Assembly (NCBI RefSeq): GCF_900096895.1
Contig: NZ_FMYO01000013.1
Location: 1-64,000 of the forward strand
DNA: 64,000 bases
Reading direction: 5' to 3'
Source of the DNA: Acinetobacter kookii
GTDB taxonomy: Bacteria; Pseudomonadota; Gammaproteobacteria; Pseudomonadales; Moraxellaceae
Below the pieces are notes generated by a model, which was not told the origin of the DNA, searched no databases, and was given only the letters and a program-made list of their open reading frames with translations. Every line of letters starts with the position of its first letter. Position 1 is the stretch's first letter. Made by a program: the position numbers and the translations under genes. Shown piece by piece: positions 4,529-20,396 of this stretch.

Positions 4529-6349
4529 ATGAGCAAAACTTTTGCTGATTTTTCCCTTGATGAGTCGTTAACACAGGCTCTAGAAGGCTTAGGCTTCACT
4601 ACGCCAACTCCTGTACAAGAACAAGCGATTCCTGCTGCACTTGAAGGTAAAGATCTTTTAGTATCAAGCCAAACCGGTTCTGGTAAAACAGCTGCATTCC
4701 TGCTTCCGACTTTGAACGCGCTTGCAAATCAAGACACTTTCGTACCGTTTAAAGAACGTATGAAAGCAATTACCCAACCGTCAATTTTGGTGATTTCACC
4801 GACGCGTGAGCTTGCACAACAAGTATGTCAGGATGCGATTGCATTCGTTCGCCATATGAAAGGCGTTCGTGTTGCTGCGATCATGGGCGGTATGCCTTTC
4901 GGTAAACAGATCCAGCAGTTAAAAGGCGCGCAGGTTGTGGTAGCGACTCCAGGTCGTTTGCTTGACCTGGTTAACCGTCGTCAAATTAAACTGGATAAAG
5001 TGGATTCATTAATTGTCGATGAAGCTGACCGTATGCTTGACCTCGGTTTCTCTGAAGACCTGGAAGCCATCAGTGATTTAGCGGTTAACCGTACACAAAC
5101 CTTAATGTTCTCTGCAACATTTGCACCACGTATCATTAATCTTGCTGAACGCATGATGAATGATCCTGAACGTATTGCAATTGAAACAGGTCATTCAACC
5201 AATACTGACATCACTCAGACTTTACATTGGACTGATGGTTTCGAGCACAAGAAAAAATTGCTTACCCACTGGTTAAATGAAGAAGATCTGGATCAGGCGG
5301 TAGTATTTGCTTCTACTCAAGAAGATACCGACATGCTGGCTGAAGAACTTTCAGAAGCGGGTCTATCTGTTGTAGCACTTCACGGTGCGATGCCACAAAC
5401 CGTACGTAACCGTCGTTTACGCAGTATTCGTGAAGGTCGTGCAAAAATCCTGGTTGCGACTGACGTTGCAGCACGTGGTCTGGACGTACCAACCATTTCG
5501 CACGTAATTAACTTCGGCCTTCCAATGAAGAATGAAGATTATGTACACCGTATTGGTCGTACCGGCCGTGCGGGTCGTACTGGTAAAGCCATTACTTTGG
5601 CAACATACCGTGAACGCGGCAAAATCCGTGCTTTGGAAGATTATTTGGAAACGCGTTTAAACGTTTCTGAAATTGAAGGCCTTGAGCCATCTCCACCTCC
5701 TGCACGTGGTAGCCGTGATGGCGGTCGTGGTCGTCGTGACGGCGGTCGTGGTGGCCGTGGCGGTTTCGGTGGCGGTCGTCGTTTTGAAGGTGAAAGTAAC
5801 TTCAAACGTCGTGAAGGCGGTGAAGATCGTCCACGTCGCAGCTATGATGACAAACCACGCAGCGAACGTCCTTCATTTGGTGAAGACCGTCCACGTCGCG
5901 AATTTAACAGCGACCGTCCGCGTCGTGAATTTAATGGCGACCGTCCGCAACGTTCTTTCGAAGATCGTCCACGTCGTGAATTCAACAGCGATCGTCCACG
6001 TCGCGAAGGTGGTTTTGAAGATCGTCCACGTCGTGACTTCGGTGATCGTCCACAACGTAGCTTTGGCGGTGAAGATCGTCCACGTCGTGACTTCGGTGAT
6101 CGTCCGCAACGCAGTTTTGGTGACAAACCGCGTTCTAACGATGACAACCGTGGCAACCGCGTAGACTATAAACCAGCGCGTGAAGGTGGTGACCGTCCAC
6201 GTCGCGAATTCAATGGCGACCGTCCGCAACGCAGCTTCGGCGACCGTCCTAAGCGTGATTTTGGTGACCGTCCACAACGCAACTTTGGTGAAGATCGTCC
6301 TAAGCGCAGTTTTGGTGAAGATCGCCCACGTCGCAAATTTAACGACTAA
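4529..6349 (+). CDS. DEAD-box ATP-dependent RNA helicase with arginine-rich repeat tail
   Basis: RNA remodelling helicase, likely active in ribosome assembly or cold adaptation. All core motifs are present: Q motif TPTPVQEQ (25-32), motif I SQTGSGKT (47-54), PTRELAQQ (91-98), DEAD (164-167), SAT (195-197), ARGLDV (315-320) and HRIGRTGRAG (340-349). The 606-residue protein has a tail from about 390 onward: first RG/RGG-rich, then about 16 repeats of the type DRPRREF / DRPQRSFG. The tail is probably disordered and RNA-binding. The tail DNA is a run of degenerate tandem repeats that opens long shadow frames. RhlE, SrmB and CsdA are all possible names; I cannot choose between them. Confidence 0.93.
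   Translation: MSKTFADFSLDESLTQALEGLGFTTPTPVQEQAIPAALEGKDLLVSSQTGSGKTAAFLLPTLNALANQDTFVPFKERMKAITQPSILVISPTRELAQQVCQDAIAFVRHMKGVRVAAIMGGMPFGKQIQQLKGAQVVVATPGRLLDLVNRRQIKLDKVDSLIVDEADRMLDLGFSEDLEAISDLAVNRTQTLMFSATFAPRIINLAERMMNDPERIAIETGHSTNTDITQTLHWTDGFEHKKKLLTHWLNEEDLDQAVVFASTQEDTDMLAEELSEAGLSVVALHGAMPQTVRNRRLRSIREGRAKILVATDVAARGLDVPTISHVINFGLPMKNEDYVHRIGRTGRAGRTGKAITLATYRERGKIRALEDYLETRLNVSEIEGLEPSPPPARGSRDGGRGRRDGGRGGRGGFGGGRRFEGESNFKRREGGEDRPRRSYDDKPRSERPSFGEDRPRREFNSDRPRREFNGDRPQRSFEDRPRREFNSDRPRREGGFEDRPRRDFGDRPQRSFGGEDRPRRDFGDRPQRSFGDKPRSNDDNRGNRVDYKPAREGGDRPRREFNGDRPQRSFGDRPKRDFGDRPQRNFGEDRPKRSFGEDRPRRKFND
5820..6345 (+). repeat. Degenerate tandem repeats encoding the helicase tail
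   Basis: Units built around GATCGTCCACGTCG and GGTGATCGTCCGCAACG recur about 16 times, about 24-33 bp each, always in the helicase frame. They are coding repeats and could expand or contract by slippage or recombination. Confidence 0.8.
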
Positions 6350-18853: not shown

Positions 18854-19148
18854 ACATACTCCTACTTAAATGACCGAAACCACAGATTTTCTGAGGGGGG
18901 AAACAGTTTTGCATCATTGTAATTTAAAACAATATGTCATTTTCTGACAAAATGCATTTCGAGTGTTAAATTTTATCGTTAAAAATCGTATTTTTAGCGA
19001 ATATTCAGCACAAATCGCGTGACAGGCCAGTCAGTAGAACTTTAGGGCTTTCTTTGGGATTTGTGGCAAAATAGCAATTATAGCTTAGCTGATTGATTGA
19101 AATTTTTCGCCTAGATTTTAGGTATCCCACATTAAAAACAGGTTGCTT

Positions 19149-20021
19149 ATGAACGCCTTAACCCAAGAACTGGTTGAATTACTGAGCCTTGAAAAAATTG
19201 AAGAAAATATTTACCGAGGTCAAAGCCGTAATCTGGTCGGTAAGCGGGTCTTTGGTGGGCAGGTGCTGGGTCAGGCATTACGCGCGGCATCCTATACCAC
19301 AAATCGTCCTGCGCATTCCTTGCATGCCTATTTTTTGTATGGGGGAGATGTCAATGCGCCGATTATTTATGAAGTAGACCGCCTGCGGGATGGCAAGAGT
19401 TTTGTCAGTCGTCAGGTGCGTGCCATTCAGCATGGACGCACCATTTTTACCGCCATGATTTCATTTGCCAATCCGGAAGAAGGCTTGAATTACCAGATTT
19501 CAGAGCCGGAATATCCTGCGGTTGAAGACCTGAAAAGTGAAGCAGAACTTAAAGCACAGCTGGTCGAATTCGTGCCGGAAAATGTGCGTGCCAGCTTTAT
19601 GCGTGACCGTCATGTGGAAATTCGTCCGGTGATGCCGGTTAATCCTTTCCAGCCTCAGCCTGAAGCTCCGTCATACGCTCACTATATCCGAACCCATGGC
19701 CAGATTGCCCATAAGGTCGATGAAATTTCGCTGCATCAGGCCATTGCTGCGTTCTATTCAGACTTTACTTTAATGACCACGGCTCTGCGCCCACACGGTC
19801 TGAGTTATATTTCCCCAAGTCTGCAATGTGCCAGCATTGACCATGCCATGTATTTCCATAAGCCATTCCGTGTCGATGAATGGATGCTCTATGATATGGA
19901 GGCGACCGTCAGTGTCAGTTCGCGCGGACTGAATTTCGGCCGCATGTGGCAAAATGGTGAGCTGGTGTGTAGCACAACCCAGGAAGGTTTGATTCGCTTG
20001 CGTGAAATTGAAACCCAATAA
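19149..20021 (+). CDS. tesB: Acyl-CoA thioesterase II
   Basis: Cytosolic double-hotdog thioesterase that hydrolyses medium- and long-chain acyl-CoA to free fatty acid. It has 290 residues, like E. coli TesB (286). Recognisable blocks are RVFGGQVLGQALRAA, HSLHAYFLYGGD, and the C-terminal SIDHAMYFHKPFR..EWMLYDMEA that carries the catalytic aspartate. I use ATG 19149; the TTG at 19143 would add only two residues. A strong terminator follows. Confidence 0.94.
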   Translation: MNALTQELVELLSLEKIEENIYRGQSRNLVGKRVFGGQVLGQALRAASYTTNRPAHSLHAYFLYGGDVNAPIIYEVDRLRDGKSFVSRQVRAIQHGRTIFTAMISFANPEEGLNYQISEPEYPAVEDLKSEAELKAQLVEFVPENVRASFMRDRHVEIRPVMPVNPFQPQPEAPSYAHYIRTHGQIAHKVDEISLHQAIAAFYSDFTLMTTALRPHGLSYISPSLQCASIDHAMYFHKPFRVDEWMLYDMEATVSVSSRGLNFGRMWQNGELVCSTTQEGLIRLREIETQ

Positions 20022-20036
20022 GGGCTGAACTGTCAT

Positions 20037-20066
20037 AAAAAAACCGGACCTGCTGTCCGGTTTTTT
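20037..20066. terminator. Bidirectional terminator between tesB and the small peptide gene
   Basis: AAAAAACCGGAC and GTCCGGTTTTTT pair around a short loop. The symmetric A/T tails let it end both tesB (forward) and the reverse-strand small ORF at 20075-20188. Confidence 0.88.
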
Positions 20067-20074
20067 ATGGGCGT

Positions 20075-20188
20075 TTAATGGCAGCGAGGGATGTCCTCGG
20101 AAACATCTTTATGGCAGCCATGGCCTGAATGGGCAACTGCCACGCTTATATTGAGAAGAAGTGCGGTCATGAGCATGATTTTTTTCAT
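20075..20188 (-). CDS. Very small secreted His/Cys-rich peptide (37 aa), YHYH-like
   Basis: The reverse-strand ORF has a clear signal peptide (MKKIMLMTALLLNISVAVA) and a predicted mature part of 18 residues, HSGHGCHKDVSEDIPRCH, with four His besides two Cys in the mature part. AGAGAAG lies just upstream of the ATG and a bidirectional terminator just after the stop. The HSG...GCH...CH pattern recalls small YHYH-domain periplasmic proteins (HSGGTDKNGCH...HCH), here shortened. A metal-binding or disulfide-closed periplasmic role is plausible but not proven. Standard gene callers would miss it. Confidence 0.6.
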   Translation of the reverse strand: MKKIMLMTALLLNISVAVAHSGHGCHKDVSEDIPRCH

Positions 20189-20396
20189 ATGGCTTCTCTT
20201 TTAATTATTGGCTGAATGAGTATCTATGCATAAGCAGATTCTATGCCATCAGTTTATTAAAGTATTGTAGATTCAGATAAAGTGAGTTACTGGCTTTGAT
20301 CTATTTCTGCTGAGCTTGTGACAAAAAAATTCTCGATTCTAAAAATAGGGCATGGCATAGTGCCTGACAGGACTTAATGATAAAAAGCATGTCGTG

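Follow-up and report, generated by a model that had tools for sequence, protein, structure and literature searches.

The stretch of Acinetobacter kookii DNA analysed here (the window, 64,000 nucleotides) holds an open reading frame of only 37 residues between the genes that we take, from the look of their sequences, to be tesB and gltP, and it raises the question of whether so short a frame is a gene and, if so, what its product does and how it is transcribed. A preliminary description had placed a secreted His/Cys-rich peptide at positions 20075-20188; the frame is there, stop codon included, and lies on the minus strand, which that description omitted, with MKKIMLMTALLLNISVAVAHSGHGCHKDVSEDIPRCH as its translation. 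It is convergent to tesB (19143-20021, plus strand) and divergent from gltP (20394 onwards, plus strand); the neighbours at this locus also include plsB and a glyoxalase-like gene, names that are likewise our presumption, and no metal gene adjoins the peptide gene. Just upstream of the frame lies the purine-rich ribosome-binding stretch AAAAGAGAAG (20193-20202, minus strand), similar in most short-form orthologs, and between the peptide stop and tesB a hairpin with a U run (20034-20069, minus strand; -18.2 kcal/mol, z -5.56 against 200 shuffles), probably a terminator common to the two convergent genes; both elements had been proposed beforehand and are borne out. A consensus terminator scan reported none at this place, probably because A-T pairs lengthen the stem into the T run.

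Judged by inspection rather than with a predictor program, codons 1-19 (20132-20188, minus strand) form a predicted Sec signal peptide with cleavage after Ala19, between AVA and HS, and codons 20-37 (20078-20131, minus strand) a predicted mature peptide, HSGHGCHKDVSEDIPRCH, of 18 residues with four His and two Cys, in agreement with what had been described. Ala19 and His20, the residues on either side of the predicted cut, occur in 17/17 aligned orthologs, and the encoded tiny peptide is probably exported. An AlphaFold model of the precursor shows the signal helix only (mean pLDDT 70.5, about 60 in the mature part); an unstructured mature part in such a model is as expected for a peptide that would fold only around a metal, or never fold.

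Intact orthologs lie between tesB and gltP in at least 18 of 149 Acinetobacter genomes, a minimum because the locus was inspected in 79 of the 149. Searches of the 149 genomes, using the peptide and a 17-ortholog profile, recovered 17 intact copies, the window's included (best per-genome E 4.2e-25), each flanked within 1.5 kb by gltP and tesB on opposite sides, tesB being displaced in L018 and L008; the eighteenth (G089, 41 aa) gave a weaker profile match and was then placed between the same two genes. Ten of the 18 are short (37 aa) and eight measure 41-44 aa. In L018 (G048) about 1.4 kb separates the end of tesB from the peptide gene, which looks as though inserted DNA had entered just after the terminator and left the peptide gene unharmed. 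The gltP upstream regions fetched from 60 further genomes, with tesB next in 57 (it was not seen in L091, L113 and L114), contained the G089 copy, one remnant (G087) and 58 regions in which no such peptide, small remnants aside, was found. A scan of named genomes gave 12 loci, in A. terrae, A. kyonggiensis, A. bouvetii (two), A. gandensis, A. schindleri and ANC strains, with a partial match in A. terrestris; ANC 4862 lies outside the 18. A scan of the order (390 genomes) with the ortholog profile gave 10 with a match at E<=0.001, namely the window, three full-length proteins that are canonical members of the small YHYH_alt family (G044, G509, G220) and six partial matches. Against plasmid records the window peptide had a single poor match (E 0.7), and a short DNA pattern used to look for paralogs in its own genome matched 20 times, versus 2 in the control.

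Conservation of the mature part, whose absence the preliminary description had named among the refuting outcomes, is found in these same-locus orthologs. In Nei-Gojobori comparisons of all pairs, dN/dS in the short form (10 sequences) was 0.163 for the signal, against 0.086 for the mature part or 0.068 without the last residue, and in the long form (6 sequences, L024 and G089 being left out for length) 0.555 and 0.080, respectively; the ratios are rough since synonymous differences are near saturation (pS 0.39-0.73), and their direction is clear. Purifying selection acts on the mature part (dN/dS about 0.09), and the 37-residue gene is genuine and conserved. A chance frame, or a noncoding RNA that happens to hold one, would suit the very short length and the position beside a terminator, yet protein-level conservation despite near-saturated synonymous sites, with orthologs in 17 further genomes, makes this reading vanishingly improbable. 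Invariant in the 17 aligned orthologs are M1, K2, L10, A19, H20, G24, C25, H26, K27, P34 and C36; G089 lacks K27 and P34 and retains H20, G24, C25, H26 and C36, the five residues common to all 18 intact orthologs. The last residue varies (H, Q, Y, S or R among the ten short-form sequences), the window peptide ending in RCH and its orthologs in RCH, HCH, HCQ, HCS, HCR or RCY. Of the pattern HSG.GCH...CH suggested earlier, His20, GCH and the second Cys are conserved in the orthologs and the final His is not. The picture of a secreted His/Cys-rich peptide is supported by the conserved Ala-1, His+1, GCH and second Cys, export being a prediction.

The window peptide gave no match against NCBIfam, including the YHYH_alt model NF033223 (curated cut-off 30 bits), and nothing over the cut-off against Pfam; DUF6488 (15.4 bits of 27) and other Pfam and NCBIfam matches were discarded, being below cut-off and mostly over the signal peptide, and three proteins compared with PHROGs had no match. 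From seven orthologs scanned, only L016 showed NF033223, at 8.2 bits and below cut-off, and canonical members scored 34.1 (L020, a 41-aa protein at another locus caught by the same peptide search), 53.4 (L048 and L051) and 44.0 bits (L056). Compared by hhalign, the ortholog profile (A1) matched a profile of 14 canonical proteins (A3) with 99.0% probability, and the mature parts alone with 95.3% (E 2.4e-8 for one comparison); the 41-44-residue forms at tesB-gltP connect the peptide to the family. Homology to canonical YHYH_alt is supported by these profiles, and, given a profile-profile match despite the missing NF033223 match, the peptide appears to be a diverged, shortened YHYH_alt branch and not a formal member. 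With the family (about 41 aa) it shares a signal peptide, an N-terminal mature His followed by Ser/Gly/Pro, the GCH motif, a second CH nine residues beyond it, and a similar size. It differs by about four residues fewer between HSG and GCH, by KDVSEDIPR in place of TNSKTGDRH (canonical L190), by its tesB-gltP site, a sigma-54-type box and the lack of metal neighbours, and by the lack of a model match; canonical rows end in HCH in 14/14 cases. In the window's genome the YHYH_alt model gave two partial matches below threshold, neither of them at the peptide, and it also responds in 9/14 control genomes, above cut-off in one. The locus is a clean example of a real 37-codon gene beneath the reach of curated models.

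The initial view of the product as a shortened YHYH protein stands, by homology, where the small YHYH_alt family is meant; no relation was seen to the larger YHYH domain of phage type, and neither the peptide nor the scanned orthologs had a Pfam match to it (the domain is presumably PF14240). This domain is described in tail proteins of jumbo phages, with a His triad and an Asp (PMC7824862); a predicted Zn hydrolase, it has only the name and conserved His in common with the peptide. Literature searches on YHYH, alone and with metal words, found no paper about the small bacterial family, which is known by name, with no studied function found in the literature searched.

The peptide gene is confined to part of the genus and has been lost repeatedly, which marks it as dispensable; neither point, nor the sigma-54-type box treated below, figured in the preliminary description. 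Decayed remnants occur in three genomes, frameshifted in G147 and G085 and truncated in G087, and on a TesB tree built by a quick method from 75 of the 79 loci (four were dropped for too little tesB) presence and absence require at least eight changes. Ancient gain with many losses and repeated transfer both fit this tree, which cannot tell them apart. A decaying YHYH_alt leftover without present function would account for the patchy presence, the three visible remnants and the variable last residue; it would sit poorly with a mature dN/dS of 0.08-0.09 in both forms and with a promoter-like box retained together with the gene, and we consider it very improbable.

What the peptide may do is suggested by the surroundings of its canonical relatives. 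Metal genes were found within 3 kb in 11/20 canonical-type loci, all 11 in the genus, and nine loci were without; the 20 (18 from the genus, two from another genus of the same family) are not independent, as they were picked from profile matches and many come from related genomes. The gene types, assigned by Pfam in eight representatives and by likeness in the rest, comprise P-type ATPases with HMA domains, Trns_repr_metal repressors, Cation_efflux, Chromate_transp and HupE_UreJ_2 proteins and an MFS transporter with a His-rich tail. A canonical member is also matched by 97 of 72,556 plasmid records, and of 18 plasmid regions hand-picked for organism spread, 11 are metal clusters, six have no metal genes (one Psychrobacter and five alphaproteobacterial, one of the latter annotated as an excalibur-domain protein) and one has no annotation; among the opened regions, the annotated ones of Acinetobacter, Pseudomonas and Cupriavidus origin number 10, and 10/10 prove to be metal clusters. 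On pMOL28 of C. metallidurans the canonical gene lies between cnrY and chrI, at cnrYXH, and other plasmid clusters carry dmeF, rcnA, hupE/ureJ, chrA or copper genes, or, in R. etli, a NiFe hydrogenase operon. Canonical YHYH_alt genes often sit within Ni/Co/Cu/chromate clusters (cnr, dmeF, rcnA, hupE/ureJ, copA, chrA), an association on which our literature search found no paper, and their proximity to cnr, dmeF, rcnA, hupE/ureJ and metal-sensing repressors offers a testable role in Ni/Co handling. What is new here is this metal neighbourhood of the parent family together with the sigma-54-type box; the peptide itself is a variant within a known family.

In two Rhizobium plasmids (L203, L208) the gene immediately after YHYH_alt codes for a DUF5334 protein, in one case next to a NiFe hydrogenase operon; a 6-kb Psychrobacter plasmid (L205) with eight annotated genes has both YHYH_alt and an excalibur calcium-binding domain gene (1566-1691 and 5242-5517); and in one genome a YHYH_alt gene (L056/L195) sits inside what looks, by sequence appearance, like a prophage tail gene module.

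Regarding expression, the upstream alignment of the orthologs contains two conserved blocks, GGCACTATGCCATG and TGGCA...TGCT. The sigma-54 consensus consists of GG and GC 10 bases apart, in a TGGCA-N-TGC context, upstream of the gene, and the second block, TGGCATAGAATCTGCT in the window (20233-20248, minus strand), is a -24/-12 box of this type. GG-N10-GC is present in 17/18 intact carriers, G130 (L006) having AC at -12 and an intact gene, and the distance from the box end to ATG is 42-46 nt in 16/17 sequences, with 97 nt in L009 and about 110 nt in G089. Mean information per column was 1.90 bits in the core, 1.11 in the spacer and 0.47 and 0.68 in the flanks, for rows chosen by a core regular expression, which favours the core; the unselected alignment has the same block. 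The -24 element is broken in the remnants G147 and G085, and the G087 remnant retains the box. In the 58 non-carrier gltP upstream regions a relaxed box pattern occurred six times within 500 nt, five at 318-365 nt from gltP, inside tesB by coordinates, and one at 22 nt from gltP.

An ordinary sigma-70 promoter, with the TGGCA...TGC box serving as an extended -10 or as another protein's site, would explain why TGGCATAAAAT resembles TG-N-TATAAT and the TGGCATAGT of gltP, and would fit an imperfect -12 in the window (CTGC instead of TTGC, one position off the genome-scan pattern TGGCAYNNNNNKTGCT) and a spacer more conserved than its flanks. The spacer that would form the -10 hexamer, however, differs between groups (e.g., TGGCACGCGATGTGCT), across carriers GGCA and the C of TGC do not vary, and TGGCAYNNNNNKTGCT has 12 matches in the window's genome versus 3 for the reversed pattern, so that we regard a sigma-70 promoter as unlikely. 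Nine of the 12 matches are intergenic in a rough open reading frame test, and L148 counts among the three inside genes owing to an opposite-strand frame. The genes next to the matches include what we take to be a type IV pilin (L150), an ammonium-transporter-like protein (L148) and a divergent nitrate-type pair (L153, L154), and several matches are without a clear next gene. RpoN is encoded in the genome, and, judging from the conserved box, sigma-54 control of the peptide gene is likely.

The genome also encodes three activators, presumably an NtrC-like protein beside an NtrB-like kinase, a PilR-like protein beside a kinase, and an SfnR-like protein. The last was considered and set aside as unlikely, since only 7/18 intact carriers have it at E 1e-115. 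The candidates left are NtrC or PilR; no NtrC-like dyad was shared upstream among 17 carriers tested. SigAb, a metal-stress ECF sigma factor of Acinetobacter, was also rejected, by inspection only: its -35 and -10 elements, GTCAAC and CGTT (PMC12153292), are unlike the box. A sigma-54-type pattern within 200 nt upstream was seen in 0/20 canonical relatives, so the box and the metal context were never observed together. In the tesB-gltP branch a peptide of this kind would stand under another type of control, by sigma-54.

The reading we favour, and hold with about even confidence, is that the gene, transcribed by RpoN with an activator, encodes a secreted, metal-chelating peptide bearing an invariant N-terminal His and two Cys. 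RNA polymerase with RpoN and an activator (NtrC or PilR being the candidates) would transcribe the gene; Sec export followed by a signal peptidase cut would leave His as residue 1, in keeping with the invariant Ala-1 and His+1; and in the periplasm a transition metal could be chelated by this free N-terminal His together with the CH pair at 6-7, the second Cys and, in the short form, His4. The 18-mer might wrap one metal ion via CH 6-7, His4 and Cys17, or an oxidised C6-C17 pair might gather its His, and the peptide would buffer or deliver metal under an RpoN-activating condition. Metal binding by the mature peptide is plausible by analogy, as the relatives often have genes for nickel, cobalt, copper and chromate resistance as neighbours. 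Periplasmic binding of Zn, Cu or Ni had been proposed beforehand; the relatives in metal clusters lend it indirect support, with Ni or Co favoured and more prominent than Zn.

When removal of a signal peptide leaves His at the N-terminus, that residue is a natural transition-metal chelator (PMC12537917), and, as in periplasmic metalloproteins with an N-terminal His (CopC, LPMO, DUF4198, 'anglerases'), cleavage is predicted to expose such a His in our peptide. The comparison covers first-residue chemistry only: those proteins are folded, and the peptide has 18 residues, is predicted to lack regular structure and has Cys as further possible ligands.

A secreted peptide with its two Cys in a disulphide could instead act free of metal, as a signal, envelope-stress or redox peptide; in the periplasm, oxidation would be the normal state of two conserved Cys once the peptide is exported, Lys27 and Pro34 are present in 17/17 aligned orthologs, short-form sequences conserve Ser, Asp and Ile between the two Cys, and the own locus is without a metal gene. 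His20 and His26, however, are as invariant as the Cys, and many relatives lie in metal clusters, hence this alternative seems rather unlikely. Within the metal-chelating reading we favour, a more specific version can be put forward, in which NtrC and RpoN would induce, under nitrogen stress, an 18-residue secreted chelator that gathers nickel (e.g., for urease), derived from Ni/Co-resistance peptides and belonging to a whole uncharacterised class of encoded periplasmic metal-binding peptides of about 18-23 residues, also found beside cnr, dmeF, rcnA and hydrogenase genes; we offer it as speculation and think it improbable in this full form.

The first of the two conserved upstream blocks, GGCACTATGCCATG, was examined as an activator site for the peptide gene and ruled out, being present whole or in part upstream of gltP in non-carriers; since non-carriers retain it and it covers the likely extended -10 of gltP, the palindrome belongs to the gltP promoter. 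A regulon defined by sites at most one mismatch away from GGCACTATGCC was likewise dismissed, with 24 matches versus 27 for the reversed control and thus no signal. The likely extended -10 of gltP (TGGCATAGT, 20353-20361, plus strand) overlaps the palindrome GGCACTATGCC outside the peptide gene, and its core is also found in non-carriers; this extended -10-like element within a near-palindrome is conserved in many genomes of the genus.
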